A stretch of DNA of 36,085 nucleotides from Odoribacteraceae bacterium. GTDB taxonomy: Bacteria > Bacteroidota > Bacteroidia > Bacteroidales > Marinifilaceae. The stretch's first letter is position 1; each line of letters opens with the position of its first letter. Shown here piece by piece: positions 2,276-24,807 of the stretch. The stretch lies in NCBI GenBank assembly GCA_031279175.1, contig JAITJA010000034.1:1-36085 (forward strand). Direction: 5' to 3'. The position numbers were made by a program, and so were the translations under genes. The notes under the pieces were generated by a model. It worked only from the letters and a program-made list of their open reading frames with translations, did no database searches and had not been told where the DNA came from.

Positions 2276-3022
2276 ATGAAACTATTAGAAGGAAAAGTTG
2301 CCATCGTCACCGGTGCTTCCCGGGGCATCGGGAAAGCCGTCGCGAAAGAGCTCGCCCGGCAAGGGGCCGCCATCGCTTTTACCGACCTGAAACGGGACGA
2401 TGTCGCGCGGGAGACTGAAAACGAGATCGCCGCGACCGGCGCGCGGGTGAAGATGTACGCTTCTAACGCCGCCAGCTTCGCCGACACGGCCGCCACGGTC
2501 GAGGAGATCATCAAGGAGTTCGGGCGCGTGGATATCCTCGTCAATAACGCCGGCATCACCCGCGACGGCCTGTTGATGCGCGCGACCGAGGAGCAATGGG
2601 ACATGGTGATTAACGTGAACCTGAAGTCCGTGTTTAACTTCACGAAGGCGGTTTCCGCGACGATGATTCGCCAGCGCGCCGGGTCGATCATCAACATGAG
2701 CTCCGTCGTCGGGGTCAGTGGCAATGCCGGGCAATCCAACTACGCCGCCTCGAAAGCCGGGATCATCGGGTTCACGAAGAGCATCGCCAAGGAGCTGGGA
2801 TCCCGCGACATCCGCGTGAACGCCATCGCCCCCGGGTTCATTATTACCGAGATGACCGGGCAGCTCCCCGAGGAGGTGCGGAAGGAATGGGCCGCGAAAA
2901 TCCCGTTGAAACGCGGTGGCACGCCGGAGGATATCGCCAGCGTGTGTCTCTTCCTGGCATCGGACATGTCCGCCTACGTCACCGGGCAAACCATCCACGT
3001 CTGTGGCGGGATGAACACTTGA
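2276..3022 (+). CDS. fabG: 3-oxoacyl-[acyl-carrier-protein] reductase
   Basis: SDR with TGASRGIG, NNAG, YAASKAG and AYVTGQTIHVCGGM. Confidence 0.93.
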   Translation: MKLLEGKVAIVTGASRGIGKAVAKELARQGAAIAFTDLKRDDVARETENEIAATGARVKMYASNAASFADTAATVEEIIKEFGRVDILVNNAGITRDGLLMRATEEQWDMVINVNLKSVFNFTKAVSATMIRQRAGSIINMSSVVGVSGNAGQSNYAASKAGIIGFTKSIAKELGSRDIRVNAIAPGFIITEMTGQLPEEVRKEWAAKIPLKRGGTPEDIASVCLFLASDMSAYVTGQTIHVCGGMNT

Positions 3023-3045
3023 TATCTCCTTCTCCCGTCGATCGC

Positions 3046-3080
3046 GCCGCGACGTTCTTGTAGAGCGTCGCGGCTCTTTT
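3046..3080 (+). terminator. Rho-independent terminator of fabG
   Basis: GCCGCGACG (3046-3054) / CGTCGCGGC (3066-3074) perfect stem followed by tcTTTTat. Confidence 0.85.
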
Positions 3081-3102
3081 ATAGCGCGTTCACTACCGGT
3101 TA

Positions 3103-3316
3103 GACAGGCGAGAAATCTAGTTAGACAGGCGACTTTTCTAGTTAGACAGGCGAGAAATCTAATTAGACAAGCAGGAAATCTAGTTAGACAAATGACTTGT
3201 CTAATTAGACAAGCGACTTTTCTAGTTAGACAATCGAGAAATCTAGTTAGACAAATGACTTTTCTAGTTAGACAAATGACTTGTCTAACTAGACAAGCGA
3301 GAAATCTAATTAGACA
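3103..3316. repeat. 21-bp tandem array 1: 10 units plus a partial, consensus GACARGCGA-[GAAA/CTTT/CTTG]-TCTARTTA
   Basis: GACA recurs at exactly 3103, 3124, 3145, 3166, 3187, 3208, 3229, 3250, 3271, 3292 and 3313 (21-bp steps); no spacers. Confidence 0.95.
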
Positions 3317-3327
3317 GAAGGGGGGGA

Positions 3328-4740
3328 TCAGGCGTCGCGGGAGAGATCGTGGAACGCCTTCCGGTAAGGGACGCCGTAAAGTTGCTCGTACTCGCGGGCG
3401 AACCGGGCGTACGCGGCGCTGGCCAGCGAATGTTTCCCGGTTTGCACGAGCGCCTTGCATTTCAGTTGCAGGGCCTCCTCGTTCAGCGGGTCGAAGAGCA
3501 GCACGGCGTCCGAGAGCTCGACCACGAGACGTTCCTCCCCGCTACCCACCATCGCGGCGAACCCTACCAGCGCGTCCACCAGCGCGGCGGACACGTCAGC
3601 CTTGAAAGCGTCCAGCCAGGCGTGATTACACCCCGGGAGCAAGGGGCCACGGCTCGCCAGGCGGGCCAGCTCGCGCACCTGCCGCTCGTCAAGCGAGGGC
3701 TCGCGGAGGAGGGCGGTAAACGAGACATAGTCGCACGAGATCCCCTCGCGCAGCTCTAGACGGATGCTCGAGGAATTCGAGACAATCTCGTAATCACCGA
3801 CCGCGTCAAGGATCGTCTTCAGCTTGCCGATGTTGACAGCGCGGTTATTGCTGGCACTTTGCGCGCTCTTGTCGAGCCACAACATCTCGTGCAGGGTCGT
3901 GATCGCGATCCCGCCGGCGTCCCGCCGGGAGTGGAGCAAGAGAATGAGAAACAACTCCTTCAACAAGGGAGTGAAGCGCCGCGACACGTCCTTCCCGGAA
4001 CGATCGATCACGCGGAAACCGCCAAAGAGCGCGACGTCACTTGCCCGCGGCGCGTCGCGATGGCCCGCGCCCCGTCCCGGGTGATACACGATGCCGGGCG
4101 CCTCCCCTTTCCCGCGTTCACGCTCGCGCTTGCGCCTGACGTAGAGGAGGAACACGCAAATGTCTACCAGCAGTATGCCGATCAACCAGTACAACGCGGC
4201 GCTCCCGGAGCGCGAGAAGTCCCTGGAAAAGACAATGTCAGGGTCGGCTTGTAGATTCTCGAGGCGAAGCGGCGAGCCGGCAGCGCCAATCGTGATCTTG
4301 TAATCGGCGCGGGGGTGCAGGCCCAGGCGACTCTCGACGAGCACCGTGTCGCCGACGGTCAACGCGAGCTGGTCGCGTTTCAAGTCAAAATGAAAGGAGA
4401 AACGGACGGGCGACGGACCGGGGACGCGCACGCGCGGGATGCTCTTGGAAAGCCGTTCGCCGGCGACGATCAGGATCTCGGGGTGCTCCCCGCCGGCGTT
4501 CAGGATCACGTCGACGCCCTGCTTGTTCAGGTTCGTCAGCCGGAGGATGTAGGTGAGATACCCGGCCCGTCCCTGCTCGAGAGAGAGGTCGAAAGCGAGA
4601 CGGATGTCGTTGTTGAACCGGAAGAAGTGCCCGTTGTTCAGCGCCAGGACGGGGACGCTCCCCGTTTCCCCGTCATTCGCTGGCGATAACGGGGCGCGGA
4701 CGAGGGAGAGAATCATTGCAAACAGTCTAAGAGGGTACAT
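3328..4740 (-). CDS. Membrane-anchored SARP/BTAD-like transcriptional regulator with periplasmic beta-rich sensor domain
   Basis: ORF 3328-4770; probable start MYPLRLFAMILSLVRA (signal/anchor) at 4740; beta-rich N-terminal region; TM helix ALYWLIGILLVDICVFLLYV followed by RRKRERER; cytoplasmic VALFGGFRVIDRSGKDV...FTPLLKELFLILLLHSR...LWLDKSAQSASNNRAVNIGKLKTIL winged-helix-like region, then a helical BTAD/TPR-like region ending YARFAREYEQLYGVPY. Confidence 0.7.
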   Translation of the reverse strand: MYPLRLFAMILSLVRAPLSPANDGETGSVPVLALNNGHFFRFNNDIRLAFDLSLEQGRAGYLTYILRLTNLNKQGVDVILNAGGEHPEILIVAGERLSKSIPRVRVPGPSPVRFSFHFDLKRDQLALTVGDTVLVESRLGLHPRADYKITIGAAGSPLRLENLQADPDIVFSRDFSRSGSAALYWLIGILLVDICVFLLYVRRKRERERGKGEAPGIVYHPGRGAGHRDAPRASDVALFGGFRVIDRSGKDVSRRFTPLLKELFLILLLHSRRDAGGIAITTLHEMLWLDKSAQSASNNRAVNIGKLKTILDAVGDYEIVSNSSSIRLELREGISCDYVSFTALLREPSLDERQVRELARLASRGPLLPGCNHAWLDAFKADVSAALVDALVGFAAMVGSGEERLVVELSDAVLLFDPLNEEALQLKCKALVQTGKHSLASAAYARFAREYEQLYGVPYRKAFHDLSRDA

Positions 4741-4930: not shown

Positions 4931-6253
4931 ATGAGAAAGTACCGGTTTATCATTTTAGTGTTACTCGCGTCCGCGTACGCGGGATCGTGCTCGACCGATG
5001 ACGTGATTGTCGAGAATGACGGGACGCCTGACGCCCGGCGCGTTATCCCTGACGTGGCCTTCGCGGAGTACTTGCAATACCGAGGCGTGGGCAACGTTTA
5101 CCAGGAAGAGGGTGCGTTCACGTTGAGCGAACGGGCGGCCGCGGCGGTGACGGGCAAGCTTGACTTGAGGAAAAACGCGAATAGCATCACCGCGTTGGAA
5201 GGCGCTGGCGTCGCGTCCGCCGCCACGAAGATCGCGAGCCTCGAGGGGATCCAGTATTTCACGGGAATCGACACGCTGTTGCTCGTGTCCAACGAGCTGG
5301 CGGCTTTAGACGTTTCGGCGCTCGAGCAGCTGGTCATGTTAGACATTAACGCCAACTTCATCACGTCGCTGGATCTCTCGGGGAATGGCGCGTTGACGTA
5401 CCTTCGCTTCGGGGCAAGCACGCGCGCCCCGGCGCTCCTCGAGGAGATTGACCTGTCGGCGAACACGGCGCTCGAGTACCTGGACCTGAACGGTCATGCC
5501 CTCGCGGCGATTGATCTATCGGCGAACGCGGCTTTGAAGGAGGTGAATCTCTCGGGGAATCCCGGCGCGCCGTTCGCGATCCCCGCGGCGATATATGACC
5601 AGCTCGCGACACGGAACGGGGTGATTTCTGACGCGGAAATACCACCGGCCGACGAGACGCGCGAGATCGCGGACGTGGCCTTCGCGGAATACTTGCAGTA
5701 CTTGCAAGTGGGTAACGTGCAGCAAGTAGAAGGGAAGTACATGCTCGATGTCGCCGCCGCCGCCGCCGCGACGGGAAAGCTTGACTTGAGGAAGAATGCC
5801 GCGCGGATCACCGTCTTGACGAACGCTAACGTGCCCTCCGCGGCAACGAAGATCACGAATCTCGACGGGATCCAGTATTTCACGGGTATCGACACGCTCC
5901 AGCTGACTTCTAACGAGCTGCCATCCATTGACCTGTCGGCGCTCGCGAAACTGGTCTACCTGGACTTGAATAATAACTTTATCTCGTCGCTTGACCTGTC
6001 GGCGAACGCGGCGCTCGAGTACCTGAGTTTCACCGCCAGCACGAAGGCAACGGAGAAGTTAACGACGATTAACCTGTCGGCAAACACGGCGCTCGTCACG
6101 CTCAATCTCTCGTCGCACTCGCTGACGACGATCGACCTGTCGGCGAATACCGCGTTGAAGAGCGTGACGCTGACCGGAAACCCCGGCGCCCCGTTTACCA
6201 TTCCGGCGGCGATCCACGACCAGTTGACCACGAAACAAGGCGTGCAGAAATGA
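4931..6253 (+). CDS. Secreted lipoprotein with leucine-rich repeats, internally duplicated
   Basis: MRKYRFIILVLLASAYAGSC-STDD lipobox; many LDLSANxALxxLxL motifs; two ~200-aa halves each starting (I)xDVAFAEYLQY and ending NPGAPFxIPAAIxDQL. Confidence 0.8.
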   Translation: MRKYRFIILVLLASAYAGSCSTDDVIVENDGTPDARRVIPDVAFAEYLQYRGVGNVYQEEGAFTLSERAAAAVTGKLDLRKNANSITALEGAGVASAATKIASLEGIQYFTGIDTLLLVSNELAALDVSALEQLVMLDINANFITSLDLSGNGALTYLRFGASTRAPALLEEIDLSANTALEYLDLNGHALAAIDLSANAALKEVNLSGNPGAPFAIPAAIYDQLATRNGVISDAEIPPADETREIADVAFAEYLQYLQVGNVQQVEGKYMLDVAAAAAATGKLDLRKNAARITVLTNANVPSAATKITNLDGIQYFTGIDTLQLTSNELPSIDLSALAKLVYLDLNNNFISSLDLSANAALEYLSFTASTKATEKLTTINLSANTALVTLNLSSHSLTTIDLSANTALKSVTLTGNPGAPFTIPAAIHDQLTTKQGVQK

Positions 6254-7620
6254 CCGCGATCGTCGGGATCGTGATCCCATTGCAAATCATCGCGATTGCC
6301 GCGTACTTGCTCTTCAAGCATTATCACCCGCAGGCCGTCCTCCTGTCGTGCGGGTTTGTCATGATGGCGATTGCCATCAGCTTCGGGTTCGAGATACCGG
6401 AACTGAAGGAGAGCACGGGCCTCCCGTTCTTCGATCTCTTCCAGCGACTCAAGGAATCAATGGTCGCGCGGGTCTCGGGAGCGGGTCTCATGATCATGGC
6501 CATCGGCGGGTTTGTCGCTTACATGAAGAAAATCGGCGCGAGCGAGGTCCTGGTATATATCTCGATGCAGCCGCTCTCTTTTTTCCGGAAATATCCTTAC
6601 ATCGCGGCCATACTCGTGATTCCCATCGGGCAATTGTTGTTCATCTGCACCCCGTCGGCGACGGGCCTTGGCTTATTGTTAGTCGCGTCGATCTACCCGG
6701 TGCTCGTGGGGCTGGGAGTGAGTCGTTTGTCGGCCGTGTCGGTGATTTCCGCCTGCACTGTCTTTGACATGGGGCCGGCGTCGGCGAATACAGCCCGCGC
6801 CGCCGAGCTTATCGGGAAGAGCAACGTCGCTTATTTCGTCGAGAACCAACTGGCATTGACAATCCCGCTGACGATCCTGTTGATGGTGCTCTATTTTTTC
6901 GTGAACCGTCATTTCGACAAGCGAGAGGGCGCGCGGGTGGAAACCTTCCGGAAGAGCGAGTTCAAGACCACCGTCCCGCTCGTCTACGCGCTGTTACCGC
7001 TCTTGCCGTTAATCCTCCTGATCATCTTCTCTCGCTTCGTGCAATTGTCCCCTGACAACGCCATCATCCTGGAGACGACGACCGCGACGTTCATTGGCCT
7101 GCTCGTGGCCTTCCTCTTCGAGCTGGTTCGTCGCCGCTCGTTGAAGGAGGTCTTCGCCTCCTTGAAAACTTTCTGGGAAGGCATGGGGAAAGTCTTCGCC
7201 TCGGTCATCACGCTTATCGTCTCCGCGGAGATCTTCTCGGCGGGGTTGATCAGCCTCGGCTTCATTGACGGGTTGGTGGACGCTTCGCGGCACGCTGGTC
7301 TCGGCGCGGTTGGCATTGGCATACTCATGACGGTAATCATCTTCCTGGCGTCGCTCTTGATGGGCAGTGGCAACGCGTCCTTCTTCTCTTTCGGACCGCT
7401 CGTGCCCGACATCGCGAACAGGCTGGGAGCGAATGCCTCCGACATCATCCTCCCGATGCAACTCTCCTCGAGCATGGGACGCGCCGTGTCGCCTATCTCC
7501 GGCGTCGTCGTGGCCATCTCGGAGATCGCGGGAGTATCGCCGTTCCAGCTCGCCAAGCGAAACCTGATCCCGCTATGCGCGACACTGGTATTCATGATCG
7601 CGTATCACTTCTTTTTCTGA
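6250..7620 (+). CDS. dcuC: DcuC-family anaerobic C4-dicarboxylate transporter
   Basis: 456-aa polytopic membrane protein with CTPSATGLGLLLVASIYPVLVGLG, FDMGPASANTARAAEL and QLSSSMGRAVSPISGVVVAIS, typical of DcuC/CitMHS-like transporters; start overlaps the previous stop (ATGA). Confidence 0.82.
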   Translation: MTAIVGIVIPLQIIAIAAYLLFKHYHPQAVLLSCGFVMMAIAISFGFEIPELKESTGLPFFDLFQRLKESMVARVSGAGLMIMAIGGFVAYMKKIGASEVLVYISMQPLSFFRKYPYIAAILVIPIGQLLFICTPSATGLGLLLVASIYPVLVGLGVSRLSAVSVISACTVFDMGPASANTARAAELIGKSNVAYFVENQLALTIPLTILLMVLYFFVNRHFDKREGARVETFRKSEFKTTVPLVYALLPLLPLILLIIFSRFVQLSPDNAIILETTTATFIGLLVAFLFELVRRRSLKEVFASLKTFWEGMGKVFASVITLIVSAEIFSAGLISLGFIDGLVDASRHAGLGAVGIGILMTVIIFLASLLMGSGNASFFSFGPLVPDIANRLGANASDIILPMQLSSSMGRAVSPISGVVVAISEIAGVSPFQLAKRNLIPLCATLVFMIAYHFFF

Positions 7621-7626
7621 CCGGCC

Positions 7627-8772
7627 ATGAAGCTTGTGAAAAACGCTAACATCCTGGCCCCGGAAGCCATCGGGGTACGCGACATGCTTGTCGGTGGCGG
7701 GAAAATCCTGGCCATCGAACCAAAAATCCATCTCTCCGGCACGGATCTCGAGGTGATCGACGCCAACGGGCTGACGCTCGTCCCGGGATTGATCGACCAG
7801 CACGTGCACGTGACAGGGGCGGGAGGACAGCAGGGATTTGCATCGATGACCCCGCCCGTCGAGCTGGGAGCGCTTGTCGCTTGTGGCACGACAACGGTCG
7901 TCGGGCTGCTCGGCACGGATAGCACCACGCGCGACCTTCGCTCCCTGTATGCCAAGGTCCGCGCGCTTGACCAGGAGGGGATCACCGCTTACATGCTGAC
8001 CGGCTCGTTCGTCTACCCGCCCGTCACGATTACCGGCACCCTCCGCGGTGACATGCTATTCATCGATAAAGTCCTCGGGTGCAAGATTGCCATCAGCGAC
8101 GACAGATCCTCGTTCCCCACCGCCGGGGAGCTGGCGCGGTTAGTCGCGGACTTGCATGTTGCCGGCATGTTATCCGGGAAGGGGGGAATACTTCACGTTC
8201 ATCTCGGCGCGTTAGACACCGGCATGAAAGTGCTACTGGAGCTTGTCGAGCGATATCACCTGCCTGCCCGCCGCCTGTCTCCCACGCACGTCGGGCGCGC
8301 GCCGGAACTCTTCGACGAGGCAATCCGTTTCGCCCTCGCCGGCGGGATGATCGACATCTCTACCGGCGGCACGCGTTTCGACGAGCCGTACAAGCAAGTG
8401 CTGCTCGCCCTTCAGCGCGGCGTGCCCATCTCGCGCCTTACGTTCAGTAGCGACGGTAATGCCGGGGTTGTCAAGAGAGACGCCGCCGGGAACGTTCTCG
8501 ACTATCATCGCGCTCCCCTCGGCAAGAACCTCGAGCAGGTGATCAAGCTGATCACGGATGGAGGCCTTTCCCCTTCCGACGCTTTCCGGCTCGTGACGAG
8601 CAACCCCGCCGACAATCTTTCGTTGTCGTGCAAGGGGAGGATCTTCGCGGGGGCAGACGCTGACTTCTGCCTCTTCGATGAACACTTCTCCCCGAGACAT
8701 CTTTTCGCGCGAGGAGAGGCGATCACGCGCGACGGGGTAATCCTGAAGAAAGGAAACTTTGAAAATGCATAA
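7627..8772 (+). CDS. iadA: Isoaspartyl dipeptidase (beta-aspartyl peptidase, amidohydrolase family)
   Basis: GLTLVPGLIDQHVHVTGAGGQQGFASMTPPVEL, GTTTVVGLLGTDSTTR, HVHLGAL, SSDGNAGV and VTSNPA, typical of IadA. Confidence 0.93.
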   Translation: MKLVKNANILAPEAIGVRDMLVGGGKILAIEPKIHLSGTDLEVIDANGLTLVPGLIDQHVHVTGAGGQQGFASMTPPVELGALVACGTTTVVGLLGTDSTTRDLRSLYAKVRALDQEGITAYMLTGSFVYPPVTITGTLRGDMLFIDKVLGCKIAISDDRSSFPTAGELARLVADLHVAGMLSGKGGILHVHLGALDTGMKVLLELVERYHLPARRLSPTHVGRAPELFDEAIRFALAGGMIDISTGGTRFDEPYKQVLLALQRGVPISRLTFSSDGNAGVVKRDAAGNVLDYHRAPLGKNLEQVIKLITDGGLSPSDAFRLVTSNPADNLSLSCKGRIFAGADADFCLFDEHFSPRHLFARGEAITRDGVILKKGNFENA

Positions 8773-10129
8773 AACCATGAAAACACTCGCGATTCTATCC
8801 CTTCTTTCCCGGACGCCCGCCCGCCGCGCGCGTCTTCCCCTGCTACATGGCTTGTCGTGGTTACTCGTTCTCCTTTTCGCCCCGGGAGTCGCCCGGGCGC
8901 AGGAAGCGCGTCTCGACGCTTACACCATCGGCGAGGGTTTTACCTTCTCTTTCCCGGCTATTAATTATAGCATGACCCTCCGCGGCTACGTGCAAATGCA
9001 GTCTGACTCCCGCTTCTATACCGGCGACGCGGACGCGAGTCATCGTTTCCGCGTCCGGCGCGCCCGGCTACGTCTCTCCGGGCGATTACTTGACGGGCGG
9101 TTGACGTACCGGCTAACCGCTGATTTCTCCGAGTCCCTCTCGAGTGACGAGGCCAACAGTCTTTTGCACGACGCGTTCATCGCGTATAAACCCGCGTCCG
9201 GCATCACGATTACCATCGGGCAAGCGCCCGTCTCCACGGACAGCCGCGAAATGGGAATCTCGTCGAACACGCTCGCCTTCACCGACCGCAGCAAGCTCTC
9301 CTCCGCCTTCAGCACCATCCGCGAGGTTGGCGTCTCCGTCGAGGGTGATTTCCGCGTCGGGCAGCGGGCCGTGCTTCGTCCCGAGATCTCCGTTACTGAT
9401 GGTGACGGGAGCGTCACCCTCTCCCGCCGGTTCGGGGGGTTAAAGTACGGCGCGCGCGTGAATTTCCTTCCCTTCGGTCGCTTCCGGCAGTTCGGCGAAT
9501 TCTCCGGTACAGACCTCGTGCGCGAGGTAGCGCCGAGACTCTCCATCGGTGCCGCCGTCAGTTACAACGATGGCGTTAGCGATCGACGCGGCGGCAGGTC
9601 TTCGGGGGACATACTCTACCTTGACGCGGGGCAGCGTCATCTCCTCCCGGGATACGGCAAGATTGTCGCCGATTTCCTTTTCAAGTACCGGGGGCTTTAT
9701 CTCCTTGGCGAGTATGCCCGCGCGTGGGCCGACGTGCCCGGGGACATTGTTTACCGCGTCCGCGAGGACGGCTCGCTGGCCACGACCTTTGACGGTGGCG
9801 TCGAGGCCTACGTCAAGGGGCGCATGATGCTTGGCTCGGGGATCAATCTCGAGGCCTCGTATCTCTTCCCGCGCTGGCTGGCTTCCGCGGGGGCGCGTTA
9901 CACCCGGCTCTTCCCCGACGACAATTCTTACCTCAACAACACCTTGTATTATAACCGTAACACGGTACATGAATTGTCCGCCGCCAAGTACCTCAATCGC
10001 TCGCACGCCGTCAAGCTACAGGCATCCGTCGCGCGCGTCGCTGCCGGGGAAGGCAACCGCGACGTCTCCGGGAATGTCTTCACCGGCCCCGAGATTCTTT
10101 TCCAGTGTCTGTTACAGGTCTCCTTCTAA
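8764..10129 (+). CDS. Phosphate-selective porin O/P-like outer-membrane beta-barrel
   Basis: Signal peptide ending GVARAQEA; YSMTLRGYVQMQSD..FRVRRARLRLSGRLLDGRLTYRLTADFSES; C-terminal aromatic residue (LLQVSF). Confidence 0.75.
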
Positions 10130-10140
10130 ATCGCGTCCTC

Positions 10141-11658
10141 ATGTCACCCTACCCCCTGCTCCTCGCGTTACTATTTCCAGCGTGCGCGCTCGCCCAACAA
10201 CCGCGCGCGATGACCGAAAAGTTCTTTCCCGACCCCGGGATAGAGATCCCCACGCCCTCGTTCCAGAAAAAGCGCGGGTTTGCCTCTCTCCAGGAGACGC
10301 TCGCGTACATCCGGGCGACCATAAAAGATGATCCCCTGGCCACGCGTACCGTTATCGGGAAGACGAGGGGAGGGAAGGAGATACCGGCCGTCATCCTCCG
10401 CCGGGAAGATGGCAAACGAAAAACGCGCGTCCTGCTGCTCGCAAGGATTCACGGCGACGAGCCCGCCGGGACGGAGGCGCTCCTCTACTTCCTGCATCGC
10501 GTCTTCAGCGACAGCGACACGCGCGCGTTACTCGACCACCTCGACATCGCCCTGCTCCCGTTCATCAACATCGACGGCGGGGAGAAGCTCCGGAGAGAGC
10601 TCGACGGCGGGTTAGACATGAACAGGGACATGACAAAGTTGCTCGCGCCCGAGACCGTGGCGCTGAACCGGTTCGCGACAGCATTCTCTCCCGATATAGT
10701 GCTTGACTTGCACGAGTACCGGCCGTTTCGCGCCGACTACGCGCGCCTCGCCTCCTTCGGTGCTTGCGCGGCGCCCGACGTGATGTTGCTTCACAGTGAC
10801 AACCTCAATCGCGCGCCCGCTCTCGGGCTACTCCTCGAGCAGGCATTTTTACCTTCCATACACCGCGCGCTCTCGGACGCGGGAATGACGTCGCACCTTT
10901 ACTTCACGTCACGGCGAGAGGGTGGGGAGATCGTGTTAAATCTTGGTGGAGCCAGTCCCCGGTCATCGTCAACGTCGTTCGCGTTACGCGGCGCGATATC
11001 CATCCTCGCCGAGATCCGCGGGGCCGACATCGGGAGGACAGCCTTCAAGCGTCGCGTGCTCTCGGCGTATCTCGTGCTCGAGACCTTGTTGCGCGACGCC
11101 GTCGAACAGGCAACAGCCTTGCATGACGCGATCGCCGCCAACAACCAAGACTCGATCGTCGTCACCGCCACCCGTCCCGTCGCCCGCCGCCCGTTCCCAT
11201 TCATTGACATCGAGAAGAACGCGCGCGTCGACATCGACTTGCCCGCCCGCGCGGCTGCCGACGCGATACCCGTGATTGTCCGTTCGAGACCACTGGCATA
11301 TGCCATCGCCCCCGGGAATGACCACCTTGTCGAAAAGCTCGACGCGCTCGGCGTCATCACCCGCCGCCTGGATCGCGAGCAACGCGTCGACGGGGAAACA
11401 TTCCTCGTCTCCGCCTGCCGCCGCGCCGACACGCCCTTCGAGGGAATCGTCGAGCAGACCGTCACTACCTCCATTGTCCCACGCGCACTGCTTCTCCCAC
11501 CGGGTAGCGCGCTCGTGGAAATGAATCAACGAGCGGCAAACCTTGCCGCCATGCTGCTCGAGCCGGAAGCCGAAAACAGCTTCACGCGATACGGTCTCGT
11601 GACCGCGATCGCCGGACAAGAGTTACCCCTGTACAGGATCACCGGAAATATTCCATAA
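10141..11658 (+). CDS. Secreted M14-family zinc carboxypeptidase-like protein
   Basis: Signal peptide MSPYPLLLALLFPACALAQQ; HGDEPAGTE (HxxE zinc ligands), DMNRD substrate site, DLHEY third zinc ligand. Confidence 0.8.
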   Translation: MSPYPLLLALLFPACALAQQPRAMTEKFFPDPGIEIPTPSFQKKRGFASLQETLAYIRATIKDDPLATRTVIGKTRGGKEIPAVILRREDGKRKTRVLLLARIHGDEPAGTEALLYFLHRVFSDSDTRALLDHLDIALLPFINIDGGEKLRRELDGGLDMNRDMTKLLAPETVALNRFATAFSPDIVLDLHEYRPFRADYARLASFGACAAPDVMLLHSDNLNRAPALGLLLEQAFLPSIHRALSDAGMTSHLYFTSRREGGEIVLNLGGASPRSSSTSFALRGAISILAEIRGADIGRTAFKRRVLSAYLVLETLLRDAVEQATALHDAIAANNQDSIVVTATRPVARRPFPFIDIEKNARVDIDLPARAAADAIPVIVRSRPLAYAIAPGNDHLVEKLDALGVITRRLDREQRVDGETFLVSACRRADTPFEGIVEQTVTTSIVPRALLLPPGSALVEMNQRAANLAAMLLEPEAENSFTRYGLVTAIAGQELPLYRITGNIP

Positions 11659-11670
11659 ACATTATACACG

Positions 11671-12879
11671 ATGAAAAGAGTTACCATTATCACCATGACA
11701 CTCCTCCTCGCCGCCGCCGCGCGGGCACAGGAGAACGCGATCGCGTACCAACCAGGGAACGGCGTCGAACTGCGTCTCGACGAGGGCAATTACGCCTTCC
11801 GCGTCGGCGGGATGCTACAGCCCGCTCTCGTCTATTCCGCCGCGACTACCGGCGAGGCCGAAAAACGCTTCACCGTCAAGCGCGGCTTATTCTCGTTACG
11901 CGGGGAAGCGCGACGGGAACGCGTCGAATTCTTCATGCAAGTCGATTTCGCGCGCAACTCTCCACTCCTCGACGCGTATCTCTCCTATCGCCCCCGCCCC
12001 TTTATCGCGCTGCACGCCGGGCAAAGGCAGTCGCCAACGAACAACCGCGAGATCAACCTACAGGAAAGCATGATCGCGATGGCGGACTACTCGTTATTGT
12101 CCACCATGTTCTCTGCCACCGGACGCGAGTTCGGCCTCTTCGTCGAGGGAGAGTTCAACGCCGGCCCGATTGTCCTGTTCCCGGCGCTCTCCGCGACTTC
12201 CGGCGACGGGATTAATGCATTCGGGACCACCTCCACCGATGTCGATCTCGGCGGCGTCAAGCTCGGCGTGCGCCTGGACATTGCCCCCTTTGGCCGCTTT
12301 GCTCCAGGGAACGATCGCTCGACGGTGGACCTTGCCCGCGAACCTGCACCGAGGCTCAGGGCCGGCGTCGCCGGCAACTACAACCGCGGGGCGAGCCACG
12401 CCACGGGCGACGGGCACGGCGCTTTCACGCTCCACGACGCGGATGGAAAGCCCGCCTACCCGGACTACCGCCGGTTACATGTCGACCTCTTGTTCAAGTT
12501 CCGGGGCTTCACGCTCCTGGGAGAGTACACCGTTGCCACCGCCACGGCCCTCGATGGCCTGTACACCGCCGCCGGTGGATCCTCCAAACTCCTCCCCGGG
12601 CAAGTCAGTCACTACCTGGCGCTCGGGGAAGCATTTCACCTCCAGGCCGGTTACATCTTCAAGTCCGGGTGGGAGATTGACGCCCGACACGTCCGCGCGC
12701 GCCCGGAATTTGCACGCGAAACGGCCTCCATCTTCCGCCGCGTCGACGCCTACGAGGCCGCCATTGCCCGCCATGTCGCGAACGGCCGCCTCAAGATACA
12801 GCTCGACGTCGAGCGGGAAATACGCGAGAGAGAGGATAACGTCACCCGCGCCGGCATGATCTTGCAAATCACCTTCTGA
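11671..12879 (+). CDS. Second OprO/P-like porin, paralogous to 8764-10129
   Basis: Signal peptide LLLAAAARAQE; RFTVKRGLFSLRGEARRERVEFFMQVDF; GQRQSPTNNREINLQESMIAMADYSLLSTMFSATGREFGLFVEGEF; ends MILQITF. Confidence 0.75.
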   Translation: MKRVTIITMTLLLAAAARAQENAIAYQPGNGVELRLDEGNYAFRVGGMLQPALVYSAATTGEAEKRFTVKRGLFSLRGEARRERVEFFMQVDFARNSPLLDAYLSYRPRPFIALHAGQRQSPTNNREINLQESMIAMADYSLLSTMFSATGREFGLFVEGEFNAGPIVLFPALSATSGDGINAFGTTSTDVDLGGVKLGVRLDIAPFGRFAPGNDRSTVDLAREPAPRLRAGVAGNYNRGASHATGDGHGAFTLHDADGKPAYPDYRRLHVDLLFKFRGFTLLGEYTVATATALDGLYTAAGGSSKLLPGQVSHYLALGEAFHLQAGYIFKSGWEIDARHVRARPEFARETASIFRRVDAYEAAIARHVANGRLKIQLDVEREIREREDNVTRAGMILQITF

Positions 12880-13736
12880 TGCGATTGTCGATCCCCGCCG
12901 CGCTCCTGGCGCTGCTCGTCGCCTGCGACAAGGACGCGCCCGCGCCGTTCCTCGAGGGCCGCGGGACGACCGCGCTCGACGTCAACGGCAAGTCGATCGT
13001 CCTGCATTACTTCGTGCCCGGCAACGCGAGCGCCGGAACGCCACTACTCTTCCTCTTCCCCGGGATCGAACGCGACGCGAGTAACTATCTCGACGCGTGG
13101 ATCGAGAACGCCACCGCGGACGGACGCGCGGTGATCGCCTTCGAGTTTCCCGCGGCGACCTTCACGACGAGTGAATACATCACCGGGAACGTCATCGACG
13201 CCGCCGGCCGACTGGTAGATCCCGGCGAACGATCGTTCGCGGCGGTAGAACGCGCGTTTGATTACTTGAAGGAGGCCACCGGCAACCGCGTCGCGCGTCA
13301 CGACATGTTCGGACATTCTGCCGGCGCGCAATTCGTTCATCGTTACTTGATTTTCACCCCCGGCGCGCGGGTGAGAAGGGCTGTCGCGGCCAACGCCGGG
13401 TGGTATACCGTCCCCGATTTCTCGATTGACTTCCCGCACGGGTTGAAGGGAACGGGAGTCACAGCGGAAAGCCTCCGCGTGGCGTTTGCCGTCCCGCTCA
13501 CCATCCATCTCGGCATGAACGACACCCGGCAGGACGCGTCGTTAAATACTTCTCCCGGATCGACGCGACAGGGAGCCAACCGGTATGCCCGGGGGCGTTA
13601 TTTTTATAACGAGTGCTCCGCGATCGCTCGCGAGAATTCATTCCCTCTCGCGTGGACGAAACGCGAGCTTCCCGGCGTTGGCCACGAGCAAGCCAAAATG
13701 GCTCGAGACGCTGCCGCTATCTTCCGCGAGGAGTAG
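12879..13736 (+). CDS. Lipoprotein alpha/beta-hydrolase (esterase/depolymerase-like)
   Basis: N-terminal lipobox LLALLVAC-DKDAP; nucleophile elbow FGHSAGAQF; GVGHEQAKMA near the C-terminus as candidate catalytic His; GMNDTRQDASL. Confidence 0.7.
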   Translation: MRLSIPAALLALLVACDKDAPAPFLEGRGTTALDVNGKSIVLHYFVPGNASAGTPLLFLFPGIERDASNYLDAWIENATADGRAVIAFEFPAATFTTSEYITGNVIDAAGRLVDPGERSFAAVERAFDYLKEATGNRVARHDMFGHSAGAQFVHRYLIFTPGARVRRAVAANAGWYTVPDFSIDFPHGLKGTGVTAESLRVAFAVPLTIHLGMNDTRQDASLNTSPGSTRQGANRYARGRYFYNECSAIARENSFPLAWTKRELPGVGHEQAKMARDAAAIFREE

Positions 13737-13786: not shown

Positions 13787-13817
13787 GCGACGTCTTTCCC
13801 GGACGTCGCTATTTTTT
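13787..13817 (+). terminator. Rho-independent terminator of the iadA operon
   Basis: GCGACGTC (13787-13794) / GACGTCGC (13802-13809), 7-nt loop, then TATTTTTT. Confidence 0.85.
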
Positions 13818-13878: not shown

Positions 13879-14004
13879 AGCGCCCGACAATGGAATGTTG
13901 GCGCCCGACAATGCAATGTTGACGGCCGACAATGCAATGTCGACGGCCGACAATGCAATGTCGACGGCCGACAATGCAATGTTGACGGCCGACTATCGGG
14001 CATG
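13879..14004. repeat. 21-bp tandem array 2: GACGGCCGA-CAATGCAATGTY and variants, ~6 units plus a decayed upstream unit
   Basis: Units at 13879, 13900, 13921, 13942, 13963 and 13984 (21-bp steps); the three central units are identical or one base apart. Confidence 0.95.
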
Positions 14005-14092: not shown

Positions 14093-16444
14093 TTAGCGGG
14101 TGATACTCCCTTGCATTTCGAATATCGTGTTTTTGCTGATGTGTTCCAGCGCGGTCATGCCGGAGATTTTCCGGCGGGCGTCTATCGTGCTGCCGTTCGC
14201 GGAGAAGGTGATGTAGATGTCCCCGTCGCCGGCGCACTCGAGCTTGAACGTGAAGGTGACCGGTAGCGCGGTCGGGCGCGGGAACGAGGTGGCGGTGTTG
14301 TTGAACGAGATCACGCCGTTCTTGTTGGTCGGGGCGTTCCAGTAGTACTGGAATTTCTGGAGTCCCCCGTCTTTCCCGGGGTCCTCGTCGGAGGCCAGCA
14401 GTGCCGATCCCCAGGAGTTGACGTGCTCTTCCGCGGTCCAGGTGGTGGACAGGTCGATCGTCCACGTGTCGGAGGTGCTTAGTTCGGGGATGAGGTACAG
14501 TACTTTATGTCCCGTCCCGATCGTGAAGTTGTCTGGTGTTGGTGTTGTCCCGGCGAGCGTCACGGGTACTTCGCGTCGTTCCCCGTCGTGCCCGACGGCG
14601 TAGAGGCGGTGCACGTCGATGTCGTAGAGGAAGCCGTTTCCGCTGAATGGCTGGGCGGTGACGGCGTTCCCGGCGGTGTAGACGCGCCTGAGATCCCCGG
14701 TTGGTCCACCCGCGCGCGCCTCGAAGGCCACGGCGTTTGTCCATCCTTCCGGTGGCGAGACGAAGACGTTGTTCCTGACCTCGGCGGTGTATCCCGTTTG
14801 GAGGGGTAGCTTGTCGCGGAAGACGTGCACGTTCGCGTCGGTGATGTATTCCATGGCCTGTGTTAGTGGTGGGTATCCCTTGATGTTGTTGATCGCGGTT
14901 TCGATCATGGCCTCGCTGACGAGGCGCGTTCCCGACCCGTAGGGTTGCAGGAATCCCGTTTTCTTGAAGAAGTCGGTCAGGTCGAGGTTGGCTAACCGGC
15001 AGACGAGCTCGACGAAGTAGATTTGGTGCTGTCCGTCGGTGCGACTGCTGGCATACGGGTCTTGCTTGCGGTAGTGCTCGTAGATGTCCTCGTAGAAGCT
15101 CGCGCCGTGCGTGCCTGTTTTCCCGAGGACGTTGTCGAGGTAGAGGTATATTTGCCAGAAGGGGACGAGCTGGTGGAAGAGGTGGGCGTTGTCCTCGTTG
15201 AGGTTGTGCGGCGTGGGGGTTGAGTTTGGCCTGTCTTTCCCGAAGAACCAGTTGAATGCTCGTTCGTAGGTGTTGACGTACCCGCCGTCGGTGACGGTTT
15301 GCAGGTTGGTTCTGAGGTTGGTGTGAGGGCTGCTGGGCACGAGTTCGCGGGCGTGTGTCAGGAGGTACAGGGCCTCGATGTTGTTCGTGACCTCGACCAT
15401 TCCGCCCCATCGGAAGGCGGGGCGCGTTTGGTTGACGTGCCCGTGTTCGTGCCCGAAGACCCAGACGTTGGCCCCGACGATGGCGTCAGGATTTGCCATG
15501 TAGTTTCCGGGGTATGCGGTGTGGTAGTCAGAGGCGTAGGCGCCGACGCCGGTGTTCATGACCTCGTGGTGGAAGTAGGCGCGGGTGCGGTGTTTCCCCC
15601 CGAACCCGTTTGGCGGGTCGAGTAGTCCCATGAATTTCCATTCCAGGTAGACGACCGCGTCGTAGGCGTCGATGAGGTCTTTTCCTCTCCCGCCGGTGTA
15701 TTGCCTGAACCAGTCGGTTGGCGCGGTGACGGTGGCGTATTTCCCGACGAGGTCGAAGTAGGGGTTCACGGCGGCGGAGATCAGGCGTTGCCAGTCGTCG
15801 TTCGTGTGCTTTCGGAGGTCGAAGCATCCGTTGACTTCTCCCCCGTGTATGTTGAGCTTGATGTCGGGAGGTCGGGTGGCGCTCGTGTAGTAGTAGCGGA
15901 TGTATGCCAGTCCGTTCCCGCTTCCGGGCAGGATTCCCGGGACGATGATGTTTTCCCCGTTGGAGAGGGGTATCGCTGCCGGTCCGGAGGAGTACCCGCC
16001 TGTTGTCGCGGTGGTGAGTGTTTGGATCTTGAGCGTTGCTTCCCCGGGGTTTTGCAGGCCGCTGACGAAGACGTGTAGCGTGTCGCCGGATTTCAAGGAG
16101 ATGCCCGTCGGGTAGTCCATCACGCCGTACTTGGCCGTTTTGTTGATCGACGCGTCGACGGAGGGTTCGGGAAGCGGCTCCACGCGCGCGACGCGGAACT
16201 CGGAGGCGTACGTGCCGTCGAGCATTTGCAGGGCGATGGAGCGGTACATGGCGTTGTCGCATACCGAGTCGATGAAGGCTTTCGTCATTCCCTCGCGTAA
16301 TTCGGTGCACGAGACGTCGGTGAAGATCGTCACGGGGTTGAAGGTTCCCGGGCGCGGGGGCAAGTTCGTGGTGCCGTCCGGGAGGTCGTCCCCGGAACAG
16401 TTCGAGAAAAGGATGAATAGAAGTAAGTAGAAAATGTTTTTCAT
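14093..16444 (-). CDS. M60-family (enhancin/mucinase-like) metallopeptidase, surface lipoprotein
   Basis: Lipobox LFSNC-SGDD; HEHGH zinc motif in VFGHEHGHVNQTRPAFRWGGMVEVTNNI; FHHEVMNTGVGAYAS; 783 aa. Confidence 0.82.
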   Translation of the reverse strand: MKNIFYLLLFILFSNCSGDDLPDGTTNLPPRPGTFNPVTIFTDVSCTELREGMTKAFIDSVCDNAMYRSIALQMLDGTYASEFRVARVEPLPEPSVDASINKTAKYGVMDYPTGISLKSGDTLHVFVSGLQNPGEATLKIQTLTTATTGGYSSGPAAIPLSNGENIIVPGILPGSGNGLAYIRYYYTSATRPPDIKLNIHGGEVNGCFDLRKHTNDDWQRLISAAVNPYFDLVGKYATVTAPTDWFRQYTGGRGKDLIDAYDAVVYLEWKFMGLLDPPNGFGGKHRTRAYFHHEVMNTGVGAYASDYHTAYPGNYMANPDAIVGANVWVFGHEHGHVNQTRPAFRWGGMVEVTNNIEALYLLTHARELVPSSPHTNLRTNLQTVTDGGYVNTYERAFNWFFGKDRPNSTPTPHNLNEDNAHLFHQLVPFWQIYLYLDNVLGKTGTHGASFYEDIYEHYRKQDPYASSRTDGQHQIYFVELVCRLANLDLTDFFKKTGFLQPYGSGTRLVSEAMIETAINNIKGYPPLTQAMEYITDANVHVFRDKLPLQTGYTAEVRNNVFVSPPEGWTNAVAFEARAGGPTGDLRRVYTAGNAVTAQPFSGNGFLYDIDVHRLYAVGHDGERREVPVTLAGTTPTPDNFTIGTGHKVLYLIPELSTSDTWTIDLSTTWTAEEHVNSWGSALLASDEDPGKDGGLQKFQYYWNAPTNKNGVISFNNTATSFPRPTALPVTFTFKLECAGDGDIYITFSANGSTIDARRKISGMTALEHISKNTIFEMQGSITR

Positions 16445-16527
16445 CTGAACGTGTTATTAACGAGTTATGGTTGTTTGTTGTCCCGGCAGCAGGAGACGTC
16501 GCCTCGCGCCAGCGGGATGAGGATAAA

Positions 16528-16570
16528 GAAAGGGGCGAAGTAATGAGCTTCGCCCCCCCTTTTCTTTCTC
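16528..16570 (-). terminator. Bidirectional-looking terminator downstream of the BspA-like gene
   Basis: GGGGCGAAG (16532-16540) / CTTCGCCCC (16548-16556); T-rich tail on plus (TTTTCTTT); minus-strand tail is CTTTCTTT. Confidence 0.75.
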
Positions 16571-16590
16571 TGTTTTCGTCTACACTATGT

Positions 16591-16639
16591 CGTTCCCCTC
16601 TGGCCGTCCCCTCTTCCGTTCCCCTCTGGCCGTCCCCTC
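16591..16639. repeat. Short direct repeat, 23-nt copies CGTTCCCCTCTGGCCGTCCCCTC at 26-bp spacing (underlying 13-bp TCCCCTCTKSCSG-like period)
   Basis: 16591-16613 and 16617-16639 are identical by eye. Confidence 0.85.
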
Positions 16640-16662
16640 GCGCTATCTACTTGTCGATAGCG

Positions 16663-18081
16663 TTATCTCCGCTTGACATAGACGGAGGTTGTCGCGGCGT
16701 GCGCGGCCCCGACTTGCGTGACGGTTTCCACTCCGGTAGCGGTCTTGAAGTCGATGGGCTCCCCACCATTCACGCCCTCGTTCTGGACGGTCATCGAGAT
16801 GCTTCCATTCCCGGTGCACGTCAGCGTGATCGTCACCGGCTTGTTCAGCGTGATGGCATACGGGGTCATCGTGTGGGTCGTGGAGTTCCAGTTCCCGCGT
16901 CCGATGGCTCCTACCTTCGTGCTTCCCTGTGATTTTCCACCGAGGTAGAACTCGAAGGGTTTAGAACCGAGGGATTCGACTACCGTCCCCGTGTACACGA
17001 TGTTGAGCAAGTGAACGCCCCAGCCGGCGCTACCGAACGTGACCGTGTTGATGTCGGTCGAGGCCTGCGTGCTGACGGCCGTGATGGTCCACTCGCTGGT
17101 CGTGTAGAGCGGTGTCGACAAGGTGGCGTATTGCCAGCCCTCGACGGCTGATGCTGCCGGGATCGTGTATGCCTCCGATACTTCCGGCGAGGCCCCGTTC
17201 ACGGTCATCTCTTTCCACACGTCTCGCTCGCGGTAGGCGCTTCCCGAGGCGGTGGGCACGGTCAGGGCGATGTTCTTCAGGGTAAGTCCCTCGAAAGCGT
17301 TGGCGGCCACCGTTGGCGGCGCGGTCGCGTCGAGGAAGATGGAGGTGAGGTTCGCGCATCCCTTGAAGGCCTGTTGTCCGACGGAGGTGACCGTTGCCGG
17401 TAGGGTGACCGTCGCGAGTGCAGGCGCGTTCTGGAAGCAGTTGGCCCCGATAGCGGTTATCGTCCCGGGGGCGGTGACACTCTCGAGCTTCGCGGCGCCC
17501 TCGAAGAGGCCGACGCCTGTCGCGCCATGCCCTTTCAAGGAGTTATCCGGGATGCTGGTGACGCCCGACAGGTCGATCTTCGTCAGCGACTTTGTTGTTG
17601 CCAGCGAGGTGATTGTTTTCATGTCTTCGGCGTTGAGCGTCCCGACGACGACGAGCTCCGTGGAGGTGAGGGAGGCGGTGAGTTGCGCGAGCGAGCCGGG
17701 CGTTTTCACGTTGGTGATGCCTTCCCTGTAGTCCACGTCGACGGGTATCTCGATGTTCGTGCCACTTCCGTCAGCGGCAAAGGCGCGTAGCGTGGCCACC
17801 CCGTGGGCGACCCCGGTGATCACGCCTGCTTGCGTGACGGTGAAGATCGTCTCGTCGCTGCTCTCGAAGAGCACTCTCCGGTAGGAGGCGTTCTCGGGAA
17901 GGGCCACGGCGGTGACGCGAAGGGTTTGGTTTTCCTTCAGCGTGAGATCACTGCCTGACGCTCCCGCGACCGTGATTTCCGTTACGGGGATGACGGTTTT
18001 TTTATCGTCTTCGCTACAGGCCGCGAGCATGAAGCAGGCGGCGAGGATGACGAGTCCGCGTGATTGTGTGATGGTTTTCAT
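16663..18081 (-). CDS. BspA-like (LRR_5) surface lipoprotein with N-terminal Ig-like (BIG_2-type) domain
   Basis: Lipobox LAAC-SEDDKK; LTLKENQTLRVTAVALPENASYRRVLFESSDETIFTVTQAGVITGVAHGVATLRAFAADGS; LRR_5-like TAIGANCFQNAPALATVTLPATVTSVGQQAFKGCANLTSIFL. Confidence 0.82.
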   Translation of the reverse strand: MKTITQSRGLVILAACFMLAACSEDDKKTVIPVTEITVAGASGSDLTLKENQTLRVTAVALPENASYRRVLFESSDETIFTVTQAGVITGVAHGVATLRAFAADGSGTNIEIPVDVDYREGITNVKTPGSLAQLTASLTSTELVVVGTLNAEDMKTITSLATTKSLTKIDLSGVTSIPDNSLKGHGATGVGLFEGAAKLESVTAPGTITAIGANCFQNAPALATVTLPATVTSVGQQAFKGCANLTSIFLDATAPPTVAANAFEGLTLKNIALTVPTASGSAYRERDVWKEMTVNGASPEVSEAYTIPAASAVEGWQYATLSTPLYTTSEWTITAVSTQASTDINTVTFGSAGWGVHLLNIVYTGTVVESLGSKPFEFYLGGKSQGSTKVGAIGRGNWNSTTHTMTPYAITLNKPVTITLTCTGNGSISMTVQNEGVNGGEPIDFKTATGVETVTQVGAAHAATTSVYVKRR

Positions 18082-18100
18082 GTCCGAGTATTTATGTGTG

Positions 18101-19990
18101 TTAATAACCGGTGTTCTGCACCAGGTTCTCGTTCACGTTGATGTAGGAGAGACGGATGGGAACCAGGTAGTGACGTTTGTCGAAGATGTACGGGAATACC
18201 GTGAGCTGGGTCTCCTTGTAGAATTCGGCGTTGGTTTTTCCCTCGTCGTTTAATCCCCACACTCCGTTCCTGTCGTTGGCGAACCATTCTTCAGCCTTTC
18301 TCCAGCGGCGAAGGTCAAAGTACCATTGCGACTCGAAGGCCAGCTCGACCATCCGCTCGCGACGTATCGCGTTGACGAGCGCCTCGCCGCTCTTGCCGGT
18401 GAAGTAGTTCATGGTGAGGCCGGCGCGGGCACGTACCTTGCTAAGGTATTCTTGTGCCTTGGCGTCCAGCGATCCCTGGAACTCGGCACATGCCTCGGCG
18501 TATTGCAGGTAGAGGTCGGCCATGCGGATCAGCGGGTAGCAGTATTGCTGGTGGCTGTAGGAGGCGCCGGTGGCTACCCCGTCGGGATCGATGATTTTCT
18601 TGACAGCGTACGCGCTGTAGAGGTGGTCATTTCCCTTGGAGACCATGCCGTTTTTCTCTCCTGCCTTCATCTTGAGCTGGTAGGTGGAGTCGCTGTTGAA
18701 CTCGTACGGTCCCCTGTCGAAACCGATCGCGGCGTAGAAGCGGGCTTCGCGGTTCAGGTGGAGGTTACAAGTTTCGGCGCCAGGAGGCACGGTCATGCGC
18801 CCTGCCTCGTTCCAGGTATATCCCAGGTCCGGATCTTCCTCTGGCGGTAGTCCGTTCTTGGTGTAGAAGATCTTGGCGGTGGTGAGCGACGCTCCCAGGC
18901 CACCCACGGGGTCACTTCCGGAGAGCCGCGAGTCAATTCCCTTGATGATCGCGTGCCGCTGCGGGCTGTTCCCGTTGTTTTCGCTCCGTGTGTTTGCCCA
19001 GATGATCTCCTTGTTCCAGTCGTCCACGAGCACCATGCGGCAACTCAGGTAGTTCGCGCGGAAGTCTTTCGTGTAGTGCTTGACGGCCTCTTCCTCGTGG
19101 AACGGGTCAGCCTTGTCGAAATTGTAGATATCGAAGCCCTGGCTTCTGGCAAAGGTGATCGCTGAGTCGATGGCTAACATGGCGCGTTGCCACTTGTTCT
19201 TGTCGCTGGTCTGGCTGATCAGGTGCTCTCCCGTGGTCTTGTCGACGAGGAGGTTGTAGTCCGTGTTCCCGTTGAATAGCGGGCTGGCGGCGTAGAGCAG
19301 CAGTTTTCCTTTCAAGGCCTTGGCGATGGTTTTGGTGGCTCTTCCATACTCCGAACGTAGCGTGCGCGTGTCCGGTAGCAACTCGATTGCCTGGTCGTAC
19401 ATGTTGTTGATCTTGTTGACGCTCTCGTCCAGCGTGAGGCGCGGGAGCTTCGCGTCGGTCTCGTTTTCGACGAAAACGATCGGGCCGTAGCACTGTAACA
19501 ACAAGTGATGGTAGTACGCGATCAGGAACTTTGCCTCTCCTTTCCACTGGTTTTTCAACCGCTCGAAGGTTTCAGGATCAACGTTCGAAGGCTTGGCCTG
19601 GTCGGCGTTGTTCAGGAAGATGTAACACTGGCGAATCCCCTGGTACACGCTCGGCGACGAGTAATTGTAGAAGGAGAAGCCGCCCCACGGGTCCATCATG
19701 GGGTTCGCGGAGTTATGTTGTCCCGCGTTGAAGGCGATGCACCCGAACCATTGCGAGGTCCAGTGGTAGGCGTGTACCAGCTCGTTGGAGGTGGCCAGGC
19801 CGGGCGTTCCGCGGAAGTCGAAGTAGTCGTACTGGTAAGAGTAGCAGGTGTACAGGAAGCCCTCCAGCGTGTTTTCGTTCTTGAAGGCGTCCGACAAAGC
19901 GGGGGTGTCGTCGGGAACGATGTCGAGGAAATCGCACGACGTTAACAGTACCCCGGCGAACAGGCTGAGTAGGATATTTCTCATTTTCAT
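18101..19990 (-). CDS. SusD/RagB-like nutrient-binding outer-membrane lipoprotein
   Basis: Lipobox LLTSC-DFLDIVPDD; typical C-terminal SusD signature PLIRMADLYLQYAEACAE...AIRRERMVELAFESQWYFDLRRW. Confidence 0.95.
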   Translation of the reverse strand: MKMRNILLSLFAGVLLTSCDFLDIVPDDTPALSDAFKNENTLEGFLYTCYSYQYDYFDFRGTPGLATSNELVHAYHWTSQWFGCIAFNAGQHNSANPMMDPWGGFSFYNYSSPSVYQGIRQCYIFLNNADQAKPSNVDPETFERLKNQWKGEAKFLIAYYHHLLLQCYGPIVFVENETDAKLPRLTLDESVNKINNMYDQAIELLPDTRTLRSEYGRATKTIAKALKGKLLLYAASPLFNGNTDYNLLVDKTTGEHLISQTSDKNKWQRAMLAIDSAITFARSQGFDIYNFDKADPFHEEEAVKHYTKDFRANYLSCRMVLVDDWNKEIIWANTRSENNGNSPQRHAIIKGIDSRLSGSDPVGGLGASLTTAKIFYTKNGLPPEEDPDLGYTWNEAGRMTVPPGAETCNLHLNREARFYAAIGFDRGPYEFNSDSTYQLKMKAGEKNGMVSKGNDHLYSAYAVKKIIDPDGVATGASYSHQQYCYPLIRMADLYLQYAEACAEFQGSLDAKAQEYLSKVRARAGLTMNYFTGKSGEALVNAIRRERMVELAFESQWYFDLRRWRKAEEWFANDRNGVWGLNDEGKTNAEFYKETQLTVFPYIFDKRHYLVPIRLSYINVNENLVQNTGY

Positions 19991-20008
19991 ATTCTCTTGT
20001 GTTATTCG

Positions 20009-23431: not shown

Positions 23432-23578
23432 ACTCTCGTGCTGATTTTTGTTATTAACATTTGATGTTTAAATGGAAATTACTTGCTGGCGGACGGTACT
23501 CGCGGTATAGTCCGACTTTCTTCTTTAACTACGTTTTCTTCATATCTGTGCTTTTTTAGGTTGATACTTGTTTTATGT

Positions 23579-24757: not shown

Positions 24758-24807
24758 AAAGACGCAATATTTTCGAAGATCTCCTATCTTCGAGCGAGTT
24801 TTTTTAA

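Follow-up and report, generated by a model that had tools for sequence, protein, structure and literature searches.

Seven neighbouring genes in a 36,085-nucleotide stretch of DNA from an Odoribacteraceae bacterium (contig JAITJA010000034.1, hereafter the window) form an operon that recurs across Bacteroidota. We read it, with a probability of about 0.5, as a nutrient-scavenging operon that would act from the cell surface to the cytoplasm on beta-linked aspartyl-type polyanions. The draft genome to which this contig belongs measures 2.06 Mb and is about 82% complete, and its nearest named relatives are metagenome genomes of Odoribacteraceae. The seven genes share one strand (4931-13736) and are followed by a terminator:

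4931-6253, plus strand: putative surface leucine-rich repeat (LRR) lipoprotein, with the lipobox AGSC followed by STDDV and with LRR Pfam matches
6250-7620, plus strand: DcuC-family inner-membrane carrier (NF037994, 386 bits)
7627-8772, plus strand: IadA-like metallo-amidohydrolase of a distinct clade (TIGR01975, alignments and tree)
8777-10129, plus strand: porin A (porA), predicted OprP/OprO-like outer-membrane porin (PF07396, AlphaFold model)
10141-11658, plus strand: predicted secreted M14 zinc carboxypeptidase (PF00246)
11671-12879, plus strand: porin B (porB), predicted outer-membrane porin, about 30% identical to porin A
12879-13736, plus strand: alpha/beta-hydrolase lipoprotein, homologue of poly(aspartic acid) hydrolase-1 (PahZ1; matches to PDB 6ve6 and 9o7u)
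13787-13816, plus strand: intrinsic terminator, a 9-bp stem and then TATTTTTT

The gene order is thus LRR lipoprotein-dcuC-iadA-porA-M14-porB-hydrolase, with intergenic distances of -4 to 12 nt. The LRR lipoprotein and dcuC genes overlap in an ATGA (6250-6253), and 6 nt separate dcuC from iadA. The ATG of porA (8777) lies 4 nt past the iadA stop, and that of M14 (10141) 11 nt past porA. M14 and porB are 12 nt apart, and porB and the hydrolase gene overlap by 1 nt. The hairpin at 13787-13816 sits at the operon end and is the longest stem in a scan of the window, although terminator-like sites were overall no more frequent there than in shuffles. An earlier note on this DNA had claimed tight packing and a terminator; the junction gaps, the ATGA overlap and the hairpin were all confirmed.

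A scan of named genomes revealed 80 loci, nearly all from Bacteroidota by title, which span Bacteroidales, Flavobacteriaceae, Chitinophagaceae, Cryomorphaceae and Cytophagaceae. DcuC accompanies the operon-type IadA in at least 78 of these loci, porA is present in at least 73, M14 in at least 72, porB, placed after M14, in at least 63, and the PahZ1-like hydrolase in at least 50, some of which have two copies. These counts are lower bounds because some contigs are short. The conserved core, dcuC-iadA-porA-M14-porB, keeps its order in further genera and families, and neighbouring core genes are separated by median gaps of 2-13 nt. The complete seven-gene order was also found in Butyricimonas (L068, L069) and Dysgonomonas (L067). 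Among 60 relatives, M14 is present in every genome whose IadA is close (53-84% identity), and the arrangement of IadA, M14 and porA is the same wherever the contig extends far enough. DcuC lies within 1.5 kb of 85 of 87 operon-type iadA genes, whereas none of 32 canonical Bacteroidota iadA genes has DcuC, a porin or M14 within that distance. The co-occurrence of iadA, dcuC, M14 and porins proposed for this DNA is therefore found in other genomes, namely at 80 named Bacteroidota loci, and the picture of a single conserved operon with a beta-aspartyl theme, spanning every layer of the envelope by predicted location, is supported. The statement that porins take the place of a SusC/SusD pair is true for most loci, but in three (L082, L090, L102) SusC/SusD replaces the porins. 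The window operon itself contains no SusC/SusD pair; the one at 18101-23431 belongs to a separate minus-strand cluster.

The idea of a polymer substrate, also raised in the earlier note, is greatly strengthened by the last gene of the operon, whose product is homologous to PahZ1, an enzyme that cuts polymers of beta-linked Asp. This hydrolase has no Pfam or NCBIfam match, and its sole PDB relatives are the two PahZ1 structures (6ve6, E=7.9e-53; 9o7u, E=1.4e-47) and, more weakly, LpqC (3d0k, 1.4e-36). It scores 183 and 166 bits to the PahZ1s against 130 to LpqC, and a profile of operon hydrolases gives 265-268 bits to the PahZ1 structures against 198 to LpqC. It shares 40% identity with 6ve6 and 36% with the other PDB PahZ1 over most of the chain, whereas the two solved PahZ1s share 41% with each other. 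Ser147, Asp215 and His269 are invariant in six operon hydrolases, and the same Ser/Asp/His are found in the PahZ1s of Sphingomonas sp. KT-1 and Pedobacter sp. KP-2. In contrast to these two, the operon protein is a probable surface lipoprotein encoded inside a conserved uptake operon. PahZ1 was discovered on a synthetic polymer. PahZ1KP-2 cleaves beta- but not alpha-linked tri-aspartate, requires three units and leaves dimers, and it is unable to cut D-Asp-L-Asp or D-Asp-D-Asp bonds (PMC4456602). Among 396 genomes of the phylum, the hydrolase is present in all four with an operon-type IadA and in 15 of the 392 others (Fisher p=4e-6, or 8e-5 without the window's own genome, with kinship ignored).

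In distant genomes (L217-L219), a PahZ1-like gene adjoins genes for a PepT-like M20 peptidase, a carrier and an M14 protein (26-31% identity to the window M14), and this cluster may represent another, independent version of the pathway. M20-type genes in L217 and in plasmid-borne neighbourhoods match PepT or other M20 peptidases, and no PahZ2 record was found for comparison. The neighbourhoods of plasmid-borne hydrolase homologues were uninformative and were set aside as support. A Microvirga gene with an M20 peptidase and an oligopeptide ATP-binding cassette (ABC) transporter as neighbours was not used, being of the LpqC type and not PahZ1. It was also observed that off-operon PahZ1-like proteins (L213-L215, L220-L222) carry an N-terminal cysteine-rich stretch, CPPC...CPVCGMNL, like a heavy-metal-binding domain.

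The IadA-like enzyme is a family member by TIGR01975 (358 bits against a cut-off of 331), with operon-type members scoring 348-399 bits and canonical Bacteroidota ones 480-490. In a quick tree with E. coli on a long branch, the operon-type sequences group together in a single branch, separate from the canonical ones (SH-aLRT, the Shimodaira-Hasegawa-like approximate likelihood ratio test, 100). Residues are numbered by the E. coli IadA sequence as it stands in the alignment. The operon clade shares with the E. coli and Colwellia enzymes (M38) the fold family, the two-metal ligands (H68, H70, K/E162, H201, H230, D285), Arg169 and Arg233, as well as Lys162 (type II) and Thr106. It differs from them at position 77, which is Glu in 28 of 28 canonical rows, E. 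coli included, but Lys in 73, Gln in 17, Thr in one and Glu in none of 91 operon-type sequences. Furthermore, Ser289 is replaced by Gly in 89 of the 91, Tyr137 is Phe or Tyr, and positions 199, 232, 234, 256 and 288 among others change jointly; in all, 24 positions are specific to the clade. Its genes are also linked to DcuC, porins and M14. The window enzyme has Gln at Glu77, Phe at Tyr137 and Gly at Ser289.

In CpsIadA, the residues equivalent to Glu77 and Thr106 (Glu80 and Thr109) hold the amino group of the substrate, Cys297 (position 289) contacts another oxygen, which we read as that of the alpha-carboxylate, and two arginines hold the remaining carboxylate end. CpsIadA E80Q has zero activity on beta-Asp-Leu, and Y140F has less than 10% (PMC5517026); the window enzyme carries Gln and Phe at just these two positions. 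One rival explanation follows the earlier note: ordinary L-isoaspartyl dipeptides from aged or deamidated protein would be scavenged, and the IadA would have normal specificity. This agrees with TIGR01975 scores of 348-399 bits, which pass the curated cut-off, and with the retained metal ligands and both substrate arginines. However, Glu77 is gone in 91 of 91 sequences and Ser289 has become Gly in 89, and in CpsIadA the Glu-to-Gln change is inactive and the Tyr-to-Phe change, as in the window, nearly so. We therefore consider this explanation rather improbable and find no support for the claim that this IadA cleaves beta-aspartyl dipeptides; it is unlikely that the operon dipeptidase cuts ordinary L-beta-aspartyl dipeptides. 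The database name "beta-aspartyl-peptidase" is probably misleading, because members of the clade carry a substitution at the residue that this reaction requires.

The retained Arg169 and Arg233 together with the remodelled amino pocket suggest that an amino acid probably remains the leaving group, and that the acyl side probably differs from an L-beta-aspartyl unit whose amino group is free. The changed pocket would better suit a substrate that is D-beta-aspartyl, N-blocked or beta-malyl, and among acyl units we favour D-beta-aspartyl or N-blocked beta-aspartyl. A more specific version, in which the operon is a utilisation locus for D-aspartate-containing beta-linked aspartyl polymers or peptides and the IadA-like enzyme a D-beta-aspartyl dipeptidase, is offered tentatively as a possibility on the unlikely side. 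In it, the changes of Glu77 to Lys/Gln and of Ser289 to Gly would swap charges, and the alpha-carboxylate would take the former site of the amino group.

The M14 protein matches Peptidase_M14 (PF00246, 57 bits), and its AlphaFold model (predicted local distance difference test, pLDDT, 94.7) is grouped by Foldseek with carboxypeptidases A, B and T. H101, E104, N158, R159, H188 and E288 (numbered from base 10150) are invariant in 41 sequences and correspond to the HxxE...H zinc ligands, the Asn-Arg pair and the catalytic Glu. An aspartoacylase-type enzyme was rejected, as the AstE_AspA match is only at cut-off and the fold is that of carboxypeptidases. PorA matches Porin_O_P (PF07396, 41 bits against a cut-off of 20.9), and its model (pLDDT 82.5) has OprP (2o4v) and OprO (4rjw) as top PDB matches in Foldseek, with the channel DcaP also high. 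Its conserved columns hold 24 Lys/Arg against 13 Asp/Glu. OprP/OprO-like porins fit polyanion uptake, and anion selectivity is predicted. PorB has no Pfam match and was placed as a porin by its homology to porA. DcuC passes both NF037994 (386 bits, cut-off 100) and TIGR00771 (320 bits, cut-off 187); a DASS carrier is present in 29 loci and an SDF dicarboxylate carrier in two.

A lipoprotein with LRR or with Calx-beta and lamin-tail domains (LTD) is encoded upstream of dcuC in 58 of the 80 loci; it is of the LRR type in Bacteroidales and some Flavobacteriaceae and of the other type elsewhere. In Bacteroidota, acidic residues shortly after the lipobox Cys act as a signal for surface export. The STDDV of the window LRR lipoprotein resembles such signals, and the protein is a probable substrate binder. 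A pattern test on proteins with a recognised lipobox found two or more acidic residues between +2 and +6 in 35 of 51 of the LRR/LTD type and in 23 of 34 hydrolases; these counts are rough owing to automatic start choice.

Two further explanations have to be weighed against a beta-aspartyl polyanion. A different C4 polyanion with beta linkages, most notably beta-poly(malate), could be the substrate and be cleaved as an ester; the PahZ1-like protein would then be a depolymerase, the IadA-like enzyme would act on malyl-malate, and DcuC and DASS would carry malate. The change of Glu77 to Lys/Gln would make sense if the substrate had an alpha-hydroxyl where the alpha-ammonium otherwise sits, putative polyester depolymerases (3d0k, LpqC) belong to the hydrolase family, and DcuC, DASS and SDF carriers suit C4-dicarboxylates. 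However, M14 has the fold and the residues typical of a peptide carboxypeptidase, and PahZ1KP-2, the homologue that has been characterised, acts on beta-Asp as an amidase (PMC4456602). A purified Comamonas polymalate hydrolase is reportedly without serine-esterase character (PMC9210645), and we regard polymalate as unlikely. It is quite unlikely that the operon serves general uptake of anionic peptides or other N-acyl amino acids, with the IadA-like enzyme hydrolysing some other N-acyl amino acid and with an incidental PahZ1-like gene. Such a role would fit the many loci and genomes that miss the PahZ1-like gene, and an enzyme in which the arginines for the amino acid carboxylate are kept but the acyl pocket is remodelled at clade-specific positions. 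It agrees less well with 50 loci that have this gene, in two copies in some, and with the related pair of PahZ1 and M14 that recurs in the distant L217-L219 genomes.

For the preferred beta-aspartyl polyanion, we infer protein locations and the order of the steps as follows. The surface LRR lipoprotein, or elsewhere its Calx-beta/lamin-tail counterpart, would bind the polymer, and the PahZ1-like surface lipoprotein, where present, would endo-cleave its beta-amide bonds. Two anion-type OprP/O-like porins, or SusC/SusD in some relatives, would let oligomers in, and in the periplasm the M14 carboxypeptidase would shorten them from the C-terminus. Small products would cross the inner membrane by way of the DcuC-family carrier, often aided by a DASS or SDF carrier, and the cytoplasmic IadA-like enzyme would do the final cut with changed specificity. 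Two suggestions of the earlier note found no support. One was that aspartate feeds fumarate respiration: neither aspartase nor the isoaspartyl aminopeptidase IaaA is above cut-off in the window's own, 82%-complete genome. The other was a cyanophycin substrate: no cyanophycinase-type gene was noticed in the clusters conserved across loci, where a dedicated model was not used.

Several points weigh against the beta-aspartyl polyanion. The evidence consists of gene content and sequence comparison, from which we infer the substrate. The changed IadA pocket speaks against a plain beta-aspartyl dipeptide step, and the common substrate could differ. Among tested genomes with a hydrolase-less locus, 14 of 16 have no PahZ1-like gene elsewhere, and therefore polymer cleavage by the PahZ1-like protein is not obligatory. 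The PahZ1 family also includes LpqC, a putative esterase, and we know of no natural substrate of PahZ1. Finally, a MocR-type (GntR/aminotransferase) regulator stands beside 39 other loci of flavobacterial type (cluster C6, e.g. L110:4170-5660). It was considered as a sign of an amino-compound inducer, but this was dropped because the lysine that binds pyridoxal phosphate (PLP) is Arg in 38 of the 39. These regulators, one of which NCBIfam names PdxR, may sense something without PLP.

The window has a different regulator, absent from the earlier note, which probably is the local regulator of the operon:

3328-4740, minus strand: divergent regulator with a signal/periplasmic part, one transmembrane segment (taken from the translation) and a cytoplasmic winged-helix/BTAD-type part (BTAD PF03704 at cut-off)

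Homologues of it (cluster C10) lie beside the operon in 10 Bacteroidales loci in addition to the window; in L072 the frame that encodes the regulator is extended at the N-terminus by a long repeat-like stretch. The locus is bracketed by two 21-bp tandem repeat arrays that differ from each other, one in the gap after the regulator gene (3099-3316) and one just past the operon terminator (13884-13993). A plus-strand 248-aa frame (2276-3022) that ends beside the regulator reads, from its translation, like a 3-oxoacyl-ACP reductase; an opposite-strand open reading frame (2285-3460) has no Pfam match and is probably spurious. The adjoining separate cluster (14093-25311, minus strand) encodes a Peptidase M60 lipoprotein, a BspA-type LRR/Big_2 protein, SusD, SusC, a FecR anti-sigma factor and an extracytoplasmic function (ECF) sigma factor, and resembles a mucin-type M60 utilisation locus. 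Downstream of the operon in Butyricimonas (L068, L069), genes were read by eye as nadB-nadC-nadA, for aspartate-consuming nicotinamide adenine dinucleotide (NAD) synthesis.

The operon has the plan of SusC/SusD polysaccharide utilisation loci: a surface binding lipoprotein, a surface hydrolase, outer-membrane import, periplasmic trimming, an inner-membrane carrier and a local regulator. It differs from them in having peptide-type enzymes instead of glycosidases and, outside the three relatives with SusC/SusD, OprP/O-like porins. Cyanophycin degradation clusters with IadA/IaaA share the beta-aspartyl linkage and an IadA-family enzyme, but no cyanophycinase or cyanophycin synthetase was noticed among the operon's conserved genes, and the characterised IadAs of those clusters retain normal dipeptidase activity (PMC10206079). 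We found no paper on this locus in the open literature, which is weak evidence, subscription papers being largely outside its scope. The families of the parts are known; what appears new is the way they are combined, how widely this combination occurs, and the remodelled IadA clade.

To our knowledge, no natural role is known for PahZ1. Its homologues sit in a conserved uptake operon, and the operon thus offers a direct route to the natural substrate. If the IadA-like enzyme were a D-beta-aspartyl dipeptidase, its substrates would be the very D-L dimers left uncut by PahZ1; this would give PahZ1 a natural setting and explain how isoaspartyl material that resists breakdown is removed from guts, soil and sea. 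The locus in Butyricimonas, Bacteroides, Dysgonomonas and Prevotella is a candidate for the clearance of isoaspartyl material, and these findings may bear on the biodegradation of poly(aspartic acid).

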